DNA of 64,000 nt from Fuerstiella marisgermanici (GTDB lineage Bacteria; Planctomycetota; Planctomycetia; Planctomycetales; Planctomycetaceae). Where the stretch lies: positions 4,216,001 to 4,280,000 of the forward strand of contig NZ_CP017641.1 in the NCBI RefSeq assembly GCF_001983935.1, written 5' to 3'. This document shows, in pieces, positions 1 to 11,834 of this stretch; the stretch's first letter is position 1, and each line of letters begins with the position of its first letter. Below the pieces are notes generated by a model, which saw only the letters and a list, made by a program, of their open reading frames with translations, searched no databases and was not told the origin of the DNA. The translations under genes and the position numbers were made by a program.

Positions 1-1
1 T

Positions 2-2158
2 GCGGGAGTAGTGCCGGGGCAGTCCGATCCATCGACGACGAAAAAATCTTCAATTGTCGAGACCACCTACAGTGTTGAAGTGAATGGGGCTGCCGCCGTC
101 GATTCAGAACGGTTTTCACAGCATCTCATGAAGAGTATTGAGCCAGTCCCAATCGGTGGCAAAGGCCGGTTACGGGTGCTGAAGATTAAACGCGTCGAGG
201 AAGAAGGACCGACGGATAGCTGGGACCTGGACGTTCTACTTACGTTGAGCGGTATGGACGCGTCTGGCGAGCCGACGACTTATACCTCACATGGTCGCAT
301 GCAGTGCCGCTTTGCCGATGACGATGAGATCAAGGCCGGGCGAATTGTCAAATCGTGGCGAATCGATTCCGAGTCACTCCGTAAGAGTCAGCAGACTTTG
401 ATGGAAGAAGTCACGTCGCAGGTCCGCCTGGATCGGCTTGCAATCGAGGACAACTGGACGAATGGCGTGAATGCTGTGCGACAGTATCGCTTTCAGGCAG
501 CAGTCGAAGACTTCGACGGGGACGGGTTCCTGGACATCGCGGCCGCCACCGCAGAAGGGCAACAGTTTGTCTTGAGATGGGACCCGGAACCTGGACAGTA
601 TGTAGACGTGACCGAATCGCTGGGCCTGCCGAGTTCCATTTCGACAAACAACCGTGCCTATCTGGCCAGCTGGTTCGACTTCGACAACGATGGCGATCCC
701 GACCTGCTTTTAGGTGAGTCATTTTTCAGGAACGTTGAAGGCCGTCGCTTCGAACCTTTGGCTGAAAACGGCGGTGCAAAATTCGCGTTCAATCCCATGG
801 GGTGCGTGGTTGCGGACTACGACGCGGACGGGCTGCTCGATTTGTATGTCCTTTACCAACGTGAAAGAGACGCTGACGCGGTTAATAACGGAAAACCACC
901 TGCATGGGTTGGGGATGACGATACCGGGGCCGCCAACCAGTTGTGGCGCAATCTCGGCGGTGGAAAGTTTGAGGAAACGGCCAAATCCGCAAATGCCACC
1001 AGTGGAAAACGCCATAGCTTTGCCGCGACATGGCTGCACGCAAACGACGATCACTATCCGGATCTGTACGTCGCAAACGATTTTGCGAGGAATTCACTGC
1101 TGATCAATCGGGGCGACGGAACATTCGACGACGTCACTGATTCCTCCGACGTTGGCGACTTTGCTACCAGCATGGGAGTCGCATCGGGTGACATCAATGG
1201 AGATGGTACGCCTGAGATCTATATTGCAAACATGTATTCGAAAATGGGGCGTCGAATCATCGCGAATGTGTCTGCGGATGATTACCCCGATGGTGTCTAT
1301 GAGCAGCTTGTCGGCTCTTGTGCTGGAAATCGTCTCTATTCGACGACGGGCAATGTGCAGCAGTACCACGAGCTAAGCGAGCAGCTTGGTATCAACGCGG
1401 TTGGCTGGGCCTATGCACCCGCATTCGCAGATTTCGACAGCGATGGATTGCTGGACATTTACGCAACAACCGGTTTCTTAAGTTTCAACCGCACAAAGCC
1501 CGATGGCTGAACATGCCTTTGGAGGGCTGTCGTGTCACAGCCACTTGACCGCACGTGCAGCATCGAACCGCTCGGTGATATCGATTCATCAGCTGGTGAA
1601 TTCTGGACGCACCCGTTCGCAATGCTGCGAAATGGAGACAACCTGAGTGCTTACGAAACGAATTGCTTATTCCTGAATGTTGACGGCAACCAATTTTTGG
1701 ATGCTTCGTTCGCATCCAACGCGAATATCGACGCGGATTCCCGGTCGGTAATGGTAGGGGACTTCGATGGAAACCTGACGCCGGATCTTCTTGTTGGATC
1801 TGTCGGAGGAGGCCCCTTGCGTTTGTTCCTGAATCGGTTCCCTGACGCCAATCACCGTGTAGACTTTCGGTTGCAAGGTGTCGAGAGCAATCGCTCAGCG
1901 ATCGGAGCACGAGTGATTGTCGAAGCCGGAGGCAAACAAATCTATCGCGATCTGTTCGCCGCAAACGGATTTATGGGGCAGAGTCCGGCTCGACTAAACA
2001 TCGGCGTCGGGACGGCTGAAAGCGTCGACAGGCTGACCATAATCTGGCCATCAGGCAGCAAGCAGGAATTTCAAAATCTTCCGGTCGATGGCACAATCGA
2101 AATTACTGAAGGCACTCAGAAATTCGACGTCGTCATGCCAGCAGCTACTGAGAAATAA
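2..2158 (+). CDS. CRTAC1-type FG-GAP/UnbV protein, 5' partial, probable selenoprotein (in-frame TGA)
   Basis: The reading frame is open at the left edge, so the N-terminus, including any export signal, is missing. Calcium-binding FG-GAP/VCBS motifs recur (DFDGDGFLD, DFDNDGDPD, DYDADGLLD, DINGDGTPE, DFDSDGLLD, DFDGNLTPD), and the last ~130 residues are an ASPIC/UnbV domain (IGARVIVEAGG, LTIIWPSGS). A single TGA at 1508-1510 splits this otherwise continuous frame. Homology-like sequence runs straight through it (KPDG-[TGA]-TCLWRAVVSQP), giving a U-T-C motif, and a SECIS-like hairpin follows at once. Decoding as selenocysteine therefore fits better than termination. A nonsense mutation or sequencing error cannot be excluded. 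It was read as one gene because both halves share the frame and the second half alone has no convincing start. The product is probably extracytoplasmic; its role is unknown. Confidence 0.8.
1508..1556 (+). promoter_or_regulatory. Candidate bacterial SECIS element directly after the in-frame TGA
   Basis: After TGA (1508-1510), GGCTGT (1525-1530) pairs perfectly with ACAGCC (1537-1542), closing the six-base loop CGTGTC. The loop begins 20 bases after the TGA and has G at its second position. This matches the published bacterial SECIS pattern: loop 16-37 bases from UGA, a G among the first two loop bases, and a stem of at least 4 pairs. A weaker lower stem joins ACATGC (1511-1516) with GCACGT (1551-1556), with one mismatch. 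Binding by SelB is an inference; no selA, selB, selC or selD gene lies in the window. Confidence 0.6.
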
Positions 2159-2204: not shown

Positions 2205-5204
2205 TCAGTTTGCCTCGCCGGTTCGATAACGAAGACGATCATCAGCTTCGACGGATTCCATCATCCACGGAGTCGGGCGACCTTCCACCAACGTGTACTT
2301 CCTGCCAGCCGCAAGATGGTCCCACACCTGAATTGCACCGGAGGGCCATGTGACCTGAAGCGTATCGACAGTTTCGTGCGGACCAAGACCGATCTTTACA
2401 TCGTTTTCATTTGCGGCCATGAATCCCCCGTCGGAACTGTTTTGAAAGCACGTCGTGCGGCCGCCTGCCGTGATCGACAGCCGCGCCGCTTGAGCCTGCC
2501 GAGGCGATTGCGTGCCGATCAGGCGCACAGCCATGCGATTTGCATCCGGATGGCGGTTTGCAAGTAGCGCGGAAGGACTGTTGAGGAAACTCACTGCCAA
2601 ATCCGCGGCCAGGTCGCAGTTCCAATCGACAACTGCAACGCTGCGTCCAAACTTCTTCGTTTGAAAGAACGGGCCAGCCTTGTCGGAAGCATCTACAAAC
2701 TCGCCCGATTGATTCAGAAACAGCTGCGAGCGCATAGGCACGTCATACAGGTGTCCATTGGCGACAAACAGGTCTCGATCTCGGTCAGCATCGAGATCGA
2801 TAAACTGAACTCCCCAGCCTAGCATCGGCCGACTTGCAGCTGCGAGGCCAACGCGATGGGTGCGGTCTTCGAACCCAAGGCCGCCAAGGTTAGTGTAGAA
2901 CGTATTCGTCTCATCTTCGTAGTTTGAAATGAAGAGATCGAAAAGCCCATCATGGTTGAGGTCTTCGGACGCGATTCCCATGCATGCTTCTCCTTTTCCA
3001 TCGCGATTGAACGCAACGCCAACCAGGACGGCCGTTTCGCTGAAGCCACGCCATGCCGACTTTTCCCTTCGGGGCACATCCTCCCCAAGGTTTCGAAACA
3101 GGAAGTTTCCTGTTGTGTCGTTTCCGACAAACAAATCGACCCAGCCATCATTGTCAACGTCGGATGAGATTACGCCCAGGCCTTTTCCGTCGGCTGCCAT
3201 AAGCCCTGCGTCAGCCGTTAGATCCTGAAATGAACCATCGCCCATATTGAGCTGAAAAACATCCTGCTCTGCCGGAAAATCCATCACGCGACAGGGCCCG
3301 TGATAGTTGCCGTTTCGGCACACCCCCAGCCTGCCGTCCGGTATTCGAACGTAATTTGTGTTGTAGAGGTCGAGGTCGCCATCGCGGTCAAAATCTGCGA
3401 ACGATGCGCTCGTACTCCATTGCACGCCAGTCAGCCCCGCCTCTTTTGTCACGTCACAAAATGTTCCATCTCCATTGTTTCGATAGATTACGTTCGCACC
3501 ACGGGTGCAGACATACAGATCGGGAAATCCGTCATTATCTATGTCTGCGACAGCACAGCCGTGCCCGTAGCCGTGGTGATTCACGGCGGCCACAGCGGTG
3601 GCGTCGACTGCTGCACCGCCTCGGAAGTTTCTGAACAAGCGATCGGAAAGTGGGCTGCCAGGTTCACCCGGCTGTGGGTTGCTTTGGGTCAAAAACAGAT
3701 CCGGCCAACCGTCCAAATCGAAGTCAACAACCCCGATCCCTCCCCCCAAAGTTTCCGTCAGAGAATCCTGCTGACCACCGCTTTGATAATATGTGAACCC
3801 GAGGCCAATTTCGGTCGCAATATCAACAAGAGCCAGAGGTTGCGATGGGCCTGCCGCATCTGGCCTTATTCCGGTGTCAGTAGATTGCGCAACAGCGATC
3901 CGGGGGGCTCCAACGAGGGATACAGAATGGTCGAGATCCTTTGAACTTGCCACAAGCAAACAATGTTGGGGATTGGCGTTCTGCCGAGTGTCTTTTACCA
4001 AGCGTCTGGCTTCTGCACCAAATTCGATGTGATCGGTGAGGGCTTTGAAGCAGATGACTGCAGCTCTGTGTTGTTCGAGCCTACTCAGAATCCGCCCCAT
4101 CTGCATCACCGTTTTTGCAGCCGGGCCTTGAGGTTCCAACGGTTTCGCGTGGCTTAAGATTTGCCACAGCTCACCATTTAGCTGTGCACGGTGAGCCCAC
4201 TTCGCAGCTTCGCCGTGATCTTCCTGATGCGTCAGCAGACGCGATAACGCAGCCACCGGCTCTGGGTCGAAGGGGCTTAGCAGCGAAGCATTTTTGTAGG
4301 CAACAATCGCGGAGGCGGTATCTCCTTGCTCCGTAAAAATCTGAGCTTGTGCCAGCCACGTCCTCAAGTTGGCATCACCCACTGGCGGCAGCTGCGACAG
4401 TTCAGTGCGTGCACGCTGAAAATTTCCCCGATCCAGATGGACCTCGGCCACCCCCAAATTGAGACGCCAACTTTCGAACCCGGACCTGGAAAAGTCAGAA
4501 TCTTGCAACAGCGAGTTTGCACGCGCCAGCTGGCCTTCCAGCCTGTGGTAGTAGGCGAGCGCTGTACGTGCCAGACAATCATCGGGGGATTTTTGCACCG
4601 AGGCCTTCAACCATTCCAGGTGCGAGTTGTCTTCCCAATAGAAGTTCCTTCCAACACAGTACAATGCTATGTCTGCCGGAGATGCCTGTCCAAGCTGGTC
4701 GAGCTCGGCGACATGAGCGAACATTGCTTCCCACCGCGTCAGGATCAATTCCAGATGCATCAGCAATCTTCGAGCTGCTGAGTGATCAGGACGAAGTTGC
4801 AAACAGTGATTGAGACACTCACGTGCATCGCTGGGGCGATTCCATTGCATGGCAAGTTGCGCACCACGATACGCGGCATCAACCGCGCTCTGCGGAGCTG
4901 AAACAGGGACATTTTGCAGCCATTCCAAAGCCGCTTCTTCATCGCCCTCCAGGATGCATACTTCAGCAAGCGTCTCAACGACCTCAGCGTTCTCCGGTTG
5001 AAGCTGTTGCAGTTTGGCAAGGACCAGCCGGGCAGATTCCAGGTCTCCCTCCTTGATCAGCTCGTACGCCTGAGATGTCAGAGCGTCTGGATCGAGCTGT
5101 TGGCTTTGTACCCAAGTCACACCAACTGCGACAGCCACACAAACAGCTATGGCTGCGAGCAGTATGCGTGGTCGAAACAACCATTGGAACGATGGGCGTG
5201 TCAT
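2205..5204 (-). CDS. TPR-CRTAC1 fusion protein (TPR repeats + FG-GAP + ASPIC/UnbV)
   Basis: This 999-residue protein starts with a short basic stretch and one hydrophobic segment (residues ~12-30), a signal anchor or uncleaved signal. Residues ~40-370 are helical TPR-like repeats (EGDLESARLVLAKL, DRGNFQRARTELSQL, QGDTASAIVAYKNA). Residues ~450-850 carry FG-GAP motifs (DFDLDGWPDL, DIDNDGFPDL, DFDRDGDLDL, DVDNDGWVDL, DLNHDGLFDL), and the C-terminal ~130 are ASPIC/UnbV. Frequent Cys residues may form disulfides after export. It converges on the candidate selenoprotein gene with a 46-base gap, and the two share the C-terminal architecture. The function is unknown; a protein-protein scaffold at the cell surface or in the periplasm is a guess. 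Confidence 0.88.
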   Translation of the reverse strand: MTRPSFQWLFRPRILLAAIAVCVAVAVGVTWVQSQQLDPDALTSQAYELIKEGDLESARLVLAKLQQLQPENAEVVETLAEVCILEGDEEAALEWLQNVPVSAPQSAVDAAYRGAQLAMQWNRPSDARECLNHCLQLRPDHSAARRLLMHLELILTRWEAMFAHVAELDQLGQASPADIALYCVGRNFYWEDNSHLEWLKASVQKSPDDCLARTALAYYHRLEGQLARANSLLQDSDFSRSGFESWRLNLGVAEVHLDRGNFQRARTELSQLPPVGDANLRTWLAQAQIFTEQGDTASAIVAYKNASLLSPFDPEPVAALSRLLTHQEDHGEAAKWAHRAQLNGELWQILSHAKPLEPQGPAAKTVMQMGRILSRLEQHRAAVICFKALTDHIEFGAEARRLVKDTRQNANPQHCLLVASSKDLDHSVSLVGAPRIAVAQSTDTGIRPDAAGPSQPLALVDIATEIGLGFTYYQSGGQQDSLTETLGGGIGVVDFDLDGWPDLFLTQSNPQPGEPGSPLSDRLFRNFRGGAAVDATAVAAVNHHGYGHGCAVADIDNDGFPDLYVCTRGANVIYRNNGDGTFCDVTKEAGLTGVQWSTSASFADFDRDGDLDLYNTNYVRIPDGRLGVCRNGNYHGPCRVMDFPAEQDVFQLNMGDGSFQDLTADAGLMAADGKGLGVISSDVDNDGWVDLFVGNDTTGNFLFRNLGEDVPRREKSAWRGFSETAVLVGVAFNRDGKGEACMGIASEDLNHDGLFDLFISNYEDETNTFYTNLGGLGFEDRTHRVGLAAASRPMLGWGVQFIDLDADRDRDLFVANGHLYDVPMRSQLFLNQSGEFVDASDKAGPFFQTKKFGRSVAVVDWNCDLAADLAVSFLNSPSALLANRHPDANRMAVRLIGTQSPRQAQAARLSITAGGRTTCFQNSSDGGFMAANENDVKIGLGPHETVDTLQVTWPSGAIQVWDHLAAGRKYTLVEGRPTPWMMESVEADDRLRYRTGEAN

Positions 5205-9335: not shown

Positions 9336-11834
9336 TTACTCAGCATCAGGTTCCGTGATTTCAATCAGTCTGTCTACAGCGATTGGTCCGTCTACTGTTT
9401 GCGACTGCCCGGACGGCCATTGCACTTCAATTTGGTTGACGATGTCCGATGGACCAAGCCCAAAGTACAGAGGACAACTGCTCTGCGACAGATAGCCTGA
9501 CTTGCCGTCATTCACCTTCAAGCAGCTTTGCTTTTCTGTTCGGACGGTCACCAATGCTCCAAGGCCGTCACGATTTGAGGCGTTGCCGGTAAGGTCAACT
9601 TTAAGATAGTGGAACGTGTGCTCCTGCTCTGCCAAATTGCTGACGAGTACCATGGGTTCCGAATTGAAATCGTTTGTGATGATGTCAAGATCACCGTCCT
9701 TGTCCATGTCGAAGATCACGGACGAACGCGTGCCTAAAGCGCCCCAGGCAGTCATCCGAGTCACCTTCGCCCCCCTGCCTCGATACGCTTCAAACAGTGG
9801 GCGGTCTTTTCCCGCCACGTCGAGTTCGAACCATGGAATGGCAGTTCTGTTGGCACGCCGAGGCTCGATCCCCAGAATGTATTCAGCATCCAGAAACTCA
9901 CGGCCTTCGTTATTCAGCAGCACGGAATTGATCGCATAGCGAAACGGAAAATTCATGCTACCCGCCACGAACACGTCCTCGAACCCATCGGCATTCAGGT
10001 CACCAACGCTCAGCCCCCAAGGCCAATAGGTTTCCGCGTTAATGCGATCAGAAATCTCGCGGTAAGTACCGTCCTTCTGCTTTTGGAAAAAAGCATTGCC
10101 AAACACATGGTTACCATCGGAATTCATCATTTCCGGTGCAAACTTCTCTTTCGGTGTCTTTAGCTTTTCCTTTTCGAAGCCGACCGGCCCTGACATGTCG
10201 GTGTGCATGTCGGTCAGATAGATATCGAGTCGACCGTCGTTGTCGAAATCGAAAACCTTGATGCCCATGGCGCCCCACGGAGTTGCTGGAAAAACTTCGC
10301 GACTTTTCTTTACGAAACGGCGACCTTCGTCATTCTCATAGTACTCGTCGTGGCCCTGCATATTCAGCACGTACAGATCCGGCCAGCCGTCTTCGTTGAC
10401 GTCCAGCGGACTGGCATCCCCGGACCACGAAGAATCCTCAAGGCCGACCGCTGAGGAAACATCAACAAACCGGTTGCCGCCCTGATTTTCGAACAGGATG
10501 CTGCTTTCCGCGCGGTCTGGCTTCAAGTGGGCTGCGAATGCATCTGGATTGGCAACCTTGTAGGGGTAGTCACGTTCATCGGCCCCTGTATGACGGTCAT
10601 TCACAACATTGGCCGTTTGATCAGTTGTGTACTCGCCAACATTCACCAGAAACAGATCCAGCCGACCATCGCGGTTGTAGTCGAAAAACACGGCGGACGA
10701 AGAGTGCCCGCTATAGTCGATGCCGGATGTTGATGAAATATCTGTAAACTTGCCCGTGCCATCGTTCTGAAACAGAACGTTCGGGCTGCGGACATTTGTG
10801 ACGTACAGGTCAGCATCTCCGTCATTGTCAATGTCCGCAAACGACGCAGACACACCAATGCGATCTGCAACTGCAACGCCAGCTGCTCTGGTCATTTCCT
10901 GGAACGTTCCGTCGCCTTGATTTTTCCACAGCTCGTTGCCTCCAACCTGTGTCACGAAATACAAGTCCTGCAATCCATCACCGTCCACATCTGCGATCGC
11001 GACGCCCGTCCCATGGTCGTAGTGGCACGGCTTGTGTTCGCGTCCGGCGTCGTCCACGATCCGGTTGCGGAATGTAATGCCACTTTCACGCCGACGATCA
11101 AAGAACCCAAAATCGTGGAACACACTGAACTTATCAGTCGTGCCGAATTGAGCATCACGGCGTTCCTCAACCCAAGCTGGATCCAACAAATCCTGATGAT
11201 ACAGCAGTCGTTCTTCTAAAGTGGTAAAGACATCTGTTTCCAGCTGATCAATTTCCGCCGTGGAACCACTATCGTAGAAGCCTCGGATGTAGCCCTCCGG
11301 TCCGACCAGGACGAACTGAGGACTGTGAGCGACCGAAGCGCCGTCGGCATTCTCGGCTTCCTCCACAGGCAGCCTAAAACCGCGCGTGGTCAGTTCTTTA
11401 ATCGCGTCGTCGGGCCCCGTCAGGAATTTCCAGTGATCCGTGTCTGCATTTGTAGCCTTCGCGTAGTCCATCAATACGTCCGGGGTGTCGTGCGCTGGAT
11501 CGACGGTGATGCTTATCATTCGGATCTCATTCCACGCCGGATTGCTTTCCCATTTCTCCTGAAGCTCCGCCAGCCTCGCGGTCTGCAGTGGACACGTCTC
11601 CTGACACCGCGTGAAGAAAAAGTTCACGATGCAGGCCCTGCCGAGTATGTCATCCGAACCATAATCCTGGCCGGACTGGTCCGTTAAGACGAAATCGGGA
11701 GCCGGCATCAGAACGGGTGGCTTGTCAACCACGGAAACACTTGCGTCGTCGCCGGAAGCCCCGGTTGAATCAGGTGACCTGGAACTGCAGCCAGCGAGCG
11801 GCGCAAGAAGGATGAGTGCGATCAGAGTTCTCAT
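9336..11834 (-). CDS. Sco/SenC-CRTAC1 fusion lipoprotein
   Basis: The 832-residue protein begins with a signal and lipobox (LAPLAGC, Cys16). Residues ~40-210 are an Sco1/SenC thioredoxin-like domain with the copper-binding pair CQETC (Cys77, Cys81) and the partner His170 (VAHSPQFVLV), so all three copper ligands are present. Residues ~245-700 hold FG-GAP motifs (DVDGDGLQDL, DIDNDGDADL, DYNRDGRLDL, DFDNDGRLDI, DLNADGFEDV, DMDKDGDLDI), and the C-terminus is ASPIC/UnbV. Sco proteins deliver copper or electrons to the CuA centre of oxidase subunit II. A subunit-II-like gene lies just upstream, but it has lost most CuA ligands. The fusion implies that thiol/copper chemistry and a propeller scaffold work on one anchored molecule. 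Confidence 0.9.
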   Translation of the reverse strand: MRTLIALILLAPLAGCSSRSPDSTGASGDDASVSVVDKPPVLMPAPDFVLTDQSGQDYGSDDILGRACIVNFFFTRCQETCPLQTARLAELQEKWESNPAWNEIRMISITVDPAHDTPDVLMDYAKATNADTDHWKFLTGPDDAIKELTTRGFRLPVEEAENADGASVAHSPQFVLVGPEGYIRGFYDSGSTAEIDQLETDVFTTLEERLLYHQDLLDPAWVEERRDAQFGTTDKFSVFHDFGFFDRRRESGITFRNRIVDDAGREHKPCHYDHGTGVAIADVDGDGLQDLYFVTQVGGNELWKNQGDGTFQEMTRAAGVAVADRIGVSASFADIDNDGDADLYVTNVRSPNVLFQNDGTGKFTDISSTSGIDYSGHSSSAVFFDYNRDGRLDLFLVNVGEYTTDQTANVVNDRHTGADERDYPYKVANPDAFAAHLKPDRAESSILFENQGGNRFVDVSSAVGLEDSSWSGDASPLDVNEDGWPDLYVLNMQGHDEYYENDEGRRFVKKSREVFPATPWGAMGIKVFDFDNDGRLDIYLTDMHTDMSGPVGFEKEKLKTPKEKFAPEMMNSDGNHVFGNAFFQKQKDGTYREISDRINAETYWPWGLSVGDLNADGFEDVFVAGSMNFPFRYAINSVLLNNEGREFLDAEYILGIEPRRANRTAIPWFELDVAGKDRPLFEAYRGRGAKVTRMTAWGALGTRSSVIFDMDKDGDLDIITNDFNSEPMVLVSNLAEQEHTFHYLKVDLTGNASNRDGLGALVTVRTEKQSCLKVNDGKSGYLSQSSCPLYFGLGPSDIVNQIEVQWPSGQSQTVDGPIAVDRLIEITEPDAE

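Follow-up and report, generated by a model that had tools for sequence, protein, structure and literature searches.

We consider it very probable, on comparative sequence evidence, that the in-frame UGA at positions 1508–1510 of the window (the whole stretch of 64,000 nucleotides of Fuerstiella marisgermanici DNA that was analysed) is read as selenocysteine (Sec), and that CRTAC1-type proteins of this Sec form make up a selenoprotein family. The initial annotation had put the gene forward as a candidate selenoprotein, a reading that is now strongly supported by a TGA fixed in one alignment column, a covarying hairpin and the presence of the sel genes. The gene product would be an extracytoplasmic CRTAC1-type protein composed of an N-terminal domain, a seven-bladed FG-GAP β-propeller and an ASPIC domain, and its UGA would be decoded as Sec by SelB and tRNA-Sec, which the downstream hairpin is proposed to recruit.

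The Sec-containing CRTAC1/ASPIC-type gene occupies window positions 1–2158 on the plus strand, in phase with base 2. Its frame is open from base 2 to the TAA at 2156–2158 and is interrupted, as first described, by a single TGA at 1508–1510, with no second stop before the end. The genome, a single contig of 8.92 Mb, extends the open frame by about 320 nt upstream of the window start, and the start codon is likely the ATG at C1:4215711, which precedes the window by about 290 nt and from which the UGA is numbered Sec600. The N-terminus that follows this ATG, MKRQSLPIAVLLICLAGIGWW, looks like a signal or membrane anchor. Around the TGA the frame reads KPDG-U-TC-LWRAVVSQP. FG-GAP repeats lie 5′ of this site, the best scoring of four FG-GAP_3 stretches (PF13517, E = 5.6e-36) at 1043–1225 on the plus strand (P0001 residues 348–408), and UnbV_ASPIC (PF07593, E = 2.4e-19) lies 3′ of it at 1898–2098 on the same strand (P0001 residues 633–699), an order that corresponds to the CRTAC1-type architecture. 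PF13517, PF01839 and PF07593 are matched by all 59 aligned family members. The closest named relative is a Fuerstiella MAG (71% identical), and the genome's second copy, a paralog with 39% identity, has exactly one in-frame TGA and a lipobox-like sequence, LLLLAGCG. The window itself holds a convergent, 999-residue non-Sec relative without an in-frame stop at 2205–5204 on the minus strand, similar over the ASPIC region, and another relative at about 9348–10940, also on the minus strand.

When fetched loci were aligned to the profile with TGA read as U, the column of the UGA contained U in 72 of 89 sequences of the first set (the others being E 5, A 3, N 2, Q 2, C 2, and R, D and I 1 each), in 12 of 15 of the second (with one S, one D and one H) and in 28 of 32 of the third, counts that include a few overlapping loci of one gene, such as L009, L011 and L034 in the first set. 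The alignment of homologs thus places TGA at the position singled out initially, and Cys rarely (two copies in one genome). Homologs with TGA at this fixed column are 30–71% identical. A search of 58 relatives (genera of the same family) gave strong matches in nine genomes, and each of the 19 matches contains one TGA. In a sample of 392 Planctomycetota genomes, 89 have a match at E ≤ 1e-60, most matches contain one TGA, and the TGA form is present in about 81 genomes, roughly a fifth. Among the matches listed, none has a TAA or TAG without an accompanying TGA, and three have extra TAA or TAG stops besides the TGA. Compared with a same-genus relative, amino-acid identity is 69% and 73% on the two sides of the TGA, and 59% and 62% of the changes fall at third positions; both flanks evolve as coding sequence in the same frame.

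Members with the TGA form occur in Planctomycetota, Verrucomicrobiota (Roseibacillus, Akkermansiaceae), Acidobacteriota (one of them on the complete chromosome CP070717.1), Latescibacterota and Poribacteria, and they fall into two subfamilies, PDG-U, to which the gene in the window belongs, and the larger D[LT]-U-SFFWRQVV. The U-T-C motif noted at the outset holds for the window's subfamily, as UxC, whereas the larger subfamily lacks a Cys at +2; across the alignment this Cys is found in 25 of 59 rows, among them nearly all of the window's subfamily, which rules out UxC as a family-wide redox pair. Copy number varies among genomes. The Akkermansiaceae bacterium UBA7890 MAG, of about 5 Mb, carries about 18 separate Sec-type CRTAC1 genes (G439; L119, L230, L238–L251), Roseibacillus SP242 (G437) has about nine TGA copies, and in a Planctomycetota MAG with seven TGA copies in total three Sec-type CRTAC1 genes, each with its own TGA, stand in tandem (L113:1010–7974).

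The hairpin lies at 1525–1542 on the plus strand and starts 14 nt downstream of the UGA. Its stem of six base pairs is formed by GGCTGT (1525–1530) and ACAGCC (1537–1542), and the six-nucleotide apical loop, CGTGTC (CGUGUC in the RNA; 1531–1536), is 20 nt from the UGA, with G at its second position followed by U; the stem-loop alone has a predicted stability of −7.8 kcal/mol. Published constraints on bacterial SECIS (bSECIS) elements are a loop of 3–9 nt, a stem of 4–16 bp, a spacing of 16–37 nt, a G within the first two loop positions and a minimum free energy (MFE) of at most −7.5 kcal/mol (PMC13188914), and the window hairpin satisfies them in loop, stem, G, spacing and MFE. Against shuffled sequences its stability is within chance (z = −0.58 for a stretch of 46 nt and −2.32 for one of 26 nt), and other cases of an open stretch such as the 215 codons that follow the TGA exist in the same window. 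Neither the hairpin by itself nor the long extension past the stop is exceptional; it is the comparison among homologs that carries the case, and this comparison is decisive. Inspected by eye, the other long TGA read-through frames of the window show no domain split like that of the CRTAC1-type gene.

Both subfamilies preserve the hairpin through compensatory change. In PDG-U (31 sequences) 98.9% of the cells are paired and double changes occur at three of the six pairs, and in D[LT]-U-SFFWRQVV (38 sequences) 97.8% are paired, with four double-change pairs (A-U/G-C, C-G/G-C, G-U/C-G/A-U/G-C and C-G/U-A); in both subfamilies the score for covariation is higher than in every one of 500 shuffles. 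RNAalifold recovers the same hairpins unaided in both alignments. Some of the compensations couple an amino-acid change with a synonymous one, for example Gln CAG to Arg CGG together with Ala GCT to GCC. Every sequence of the D[LT]-U-SFFWRQVV subfamily has GU in the loop, as do 78 of the 79 sequences taken together. Each of the 79 Sec members has some hairpin whose stem, loop, G and spacing lie within bSECIS limits, a few of these hairpins being weak, and all six pairs are intact in 66 of the 79 as against none of 19 non-Sec homologs. The proposal that the hairpin fits the bacterial SECIS consensus is thereby borne out, both by the constraints and by covariation in two subfamilies.

All four genes of the Sec machinery that the initial annotation had wanted traced are found in the host genome, with scores of 79.7 bits for selC, 336 for selB, 506 for selA and 263 for selD. 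The selA and selD genes lie close together, and selD is contained in an open frame of 772 residues, longer than SelD alone, that adjoins selA (C1:1587774–1588730, minus strand) and possibly encodes a fusion protein. At a threshold of E ≤ 1e-65, selB is present in 74 of the 81 TGA-form genomes compared with 160 of the 311 others in the Planctomycetota sample of 392, an association whose Fisher p = 3e-12 is inflated by shared ancestry. Several of the seven TGA-form genomes without selB at this threshold are incomplete MAGs, and one is G117. Among the ten genomes behind the named loci, nine have selB.

If a sense codon had mutated or been misread to TGA, the result would be a broken gene, and ORF calling by standard rules does split the gene into two separate ORFs at the TGA, as a broken gene would look; in addition, the relative in G117 has extra TAG stops and no detected selB in its genome. 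This pseudogene or sequencing-error explanation, which we regard as having a negligible probability, is refuted by the conserved TGA column, the same TGA being present in more than 100 homologous genes of several phyla, and by the covariation of the hairpin, and protein-coding constraint in the same frame on both flanks argues against it as well. A reassignment of UGA throughout the genome is unlikely, given the sel genes, the SECIS hairpin and the fact that 12 of the window's 42 long open frames end in UGA.

It is likewise highly improbable, if less remote than a broken gene, that the UGA terminates translation and the second half is produced by a restart at GTG 1532, or that the codon is read through at a low level, with Trp, Gly or Cys inserted and no selenium involved. 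A GTG start codon is indeed present 21 nt past the TGA, and a stem-loop 3′ of a stop codon can promote read-through that does not involve Sec. However, this GTG falls in the hairpin loop and is a conserved Val codon of the continuous protein, and homologs with a sense codon at the site cross it without restart; moreover, the hairpin has the bSECIS properties including the loop GU, and the TGA form follows selB across the phylum, with all four sel genes present in the host.

Pairs of Cys and Sec homologs are the usual hallmark of selenoproteins, and their near absence here speaks against the Sec reading. In this family Cys at the Sec column is confined to L079 and L080 of one genome (G132), the sole Cys homologs found, with DYCTHFW and DYCTQFW, respectively, and both are without the hairpin. 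The other non-Sec homologs of the fetched set (17 of 19) have E, A, Q, N, D, R, I, S or H at this column, and even those with a nearly identical peptide, such as L109 (SSFFWRQVV), use other codons and have lost the hairpin. Homologs with neither Cys nor TGA, which the initial annotation had regarded as evidence against Sec, thus do occur; however, as they are scattered over the tree in clusters and the hairpin is lost, they look more like secondary replacements than like evidence against the Sec reading. An unrooted tree of 97 domains, in which the direction of change is inferred, shows at least eight changes of the Sec/non-Sec label, six of them forced by well-supported branches, compared with a mean of 17.5 for shuffled labels. 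The sequences suggest that Sec has been replaced repeatedly, mostly by residues other than Cys. One further gene, L039 (G117:C36:100368–102665), combines the conserved TGA with two TAG stops in a genome with no detected selB, and looks like a case of decay after loss of Sec decoding.

An AlphaFold model obtained from the 59-member alignment has a pLDDT of 92, and its top structural match is mouse CRTAC1 (PDB 9etn; Z 35.5, rmsd 2.5, 456 residues); 9etn_A also ranks first in Foldseek (E 1.4e-25), and the next row by Z scores 29.2. In the model, Sec appears as the first residue of a short helix (599–608), within roughly 90 residues that are inserted between the propeller blades that we read as the sixth and seventh. 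Asp598, Trp604, Glu649, Asp676 and Arg678 in and around the insertion are almost strictly conserved in Sec members, as is Ser510 on a different blade. Asp598 and Ser510 are coupled to Sec, being present in 100% of Sec members versus 74% and 79%, respectively, of the others. The 59-row alignment contains no partner cysteine conserved across the whole family.

The role of Sec is probably in extracytoplasmic redox or metal chemistry. We tentatively assign to it a redox-type function as the reactive centre of an exported protein, an assignment to which we give slightly less than even probability. Sec would be the reactive residue either of a redox enzyme that is exported or of a site that handles metal. 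The N-terminal end of the helix and acidic or basic neighbours would activate it, and its resolution might fall to the UxC cysteine in PDG-U proteins and to an external thiol in the others. Most selenoproteins whose function is known are redox enzymes, and many have Sec at the N-terminus of a helix; this precedent, together with the UxC pair that nearly every member of the window's subfamily has, speaks against a Sec that is genuinely decoded but acts as a structural or metal ligand, for the propeller calcium or another metal, and not as a redox catalyst. That alternative, which we judge possible but clearly short of even probability, draws on the missing cysteine partner in the larger subfamily, on replacements among which Glu, Ala, Gln, Asn and Asp predominate and Cys is rare, with Glu, Gln, Asn and Asp able to act as metal ligands, and on the acidic nature of Asp598, Glu649 and Asp676; FG-GAP propellers, furthermore, bind calcium.

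BLASTP clustering of 40 neighbourhoods and of eight named loci revealed no recurrent partner genes other than further CRTAC1 copies. A CRTAC1 FG-GAP gene lies in hydrazine-synthase (HZS)-like gene clusters of some Planctomycetota (PMC12758564), and counts of CxxCH motifs in the first neighbourhood set, made with regard to this link, gave no clear pattern.

The initial annotation was unaware of any description of this family as a selenoprotein, and we arrive at the same result in the inventory, model and literature sources consulted. The 119 families and subfamilies of prokaryotic selenoproteins inventoried in 2026, through which the families of Haft (2023, 2025) were covered, include no FG-GAP, ASPIC or CRTAC1 member (PMC13188914). 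The window's gene product matches no NCBIfam family at E 0.01, and the 59 members yield an XAC2610-related model (21 members) and single weak matches but no convincing selenoprotein model, the sole one matched being SaoC (NF040734; E = 0.01, one member). In the open-access literature, with the supplement of PMC4807772 on planctomycete selenoprotein candidates outside the search, we found no paper that links selenocysteine to FG-GAP or UnbV, and for the combination of selenoprotein and CRTAC1 the papers listed were all medical. The Sec form of the CRTAC1-type family appears undescribed, as do its fold class and copy number, while the decoding itself is standard. The family has been missed by searches for Cys/Sec pairs because Cys homologs are nearly absent, and gene callers hide its genes by splitting each in two.

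We think it probable that these proteins represent a large unrecognised superfamily of exported Sec propeller proteins in several phyla, with lineage-specific expansions, a fold new for Sec and no conserved partner cysteine, which gene callers split and which may help to keep the Sec machinery in place. If so, CRTAC1-type Sec proteins may be one reason why the host lineages retain this machinery, and would help to explain continued selenium use by these bacteria. In some Verrucomicrobiota the family is strongly expanded, and the selenoproteome of bacteria would gain a large group with it. Proteins of the CRTAC1 type are common in the host phyla and occur in animals too, and the strictly conserved Sec points to a first chemical handle on the function of the bacterial ones.

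Compared with known systems, the Sec protein shares domain order and fold with the CRTAC1/ASPIC-UnbV family (PF13517 and PF07593; mouse CRTAC1, 9etn), to which it adds the Sec insertion between blades 6 and 7, falling between the aligned stretches in the profile alignment to 9etn, and an N-terminal domain of about 200 residues. The U/Cys spacing of the window's U-T-C recurs in the UxC/CxU selenoproteins of the SO_0444 family Cu/Zn efflux transporter and thioredoxin-like Sec.2 (PMC13188914); both are, however, unrelated to CRTAC1-type proteins, and the larger CRTAC1 subfamily lacks that cysteine. With bSECIS selenoproteins such as E. coli FdhF it has in common the in-frame UGA, the GU-loop hairpin, the spacing and selA–D, but it differs in belonging to a protein family and fold absent from the 2026 inventory, in having neither a thioredoxin-like fold nor a CxxU or UxxC pair, in the near absence of Cys homologs, and in reaching up to about 18 copies per genome.
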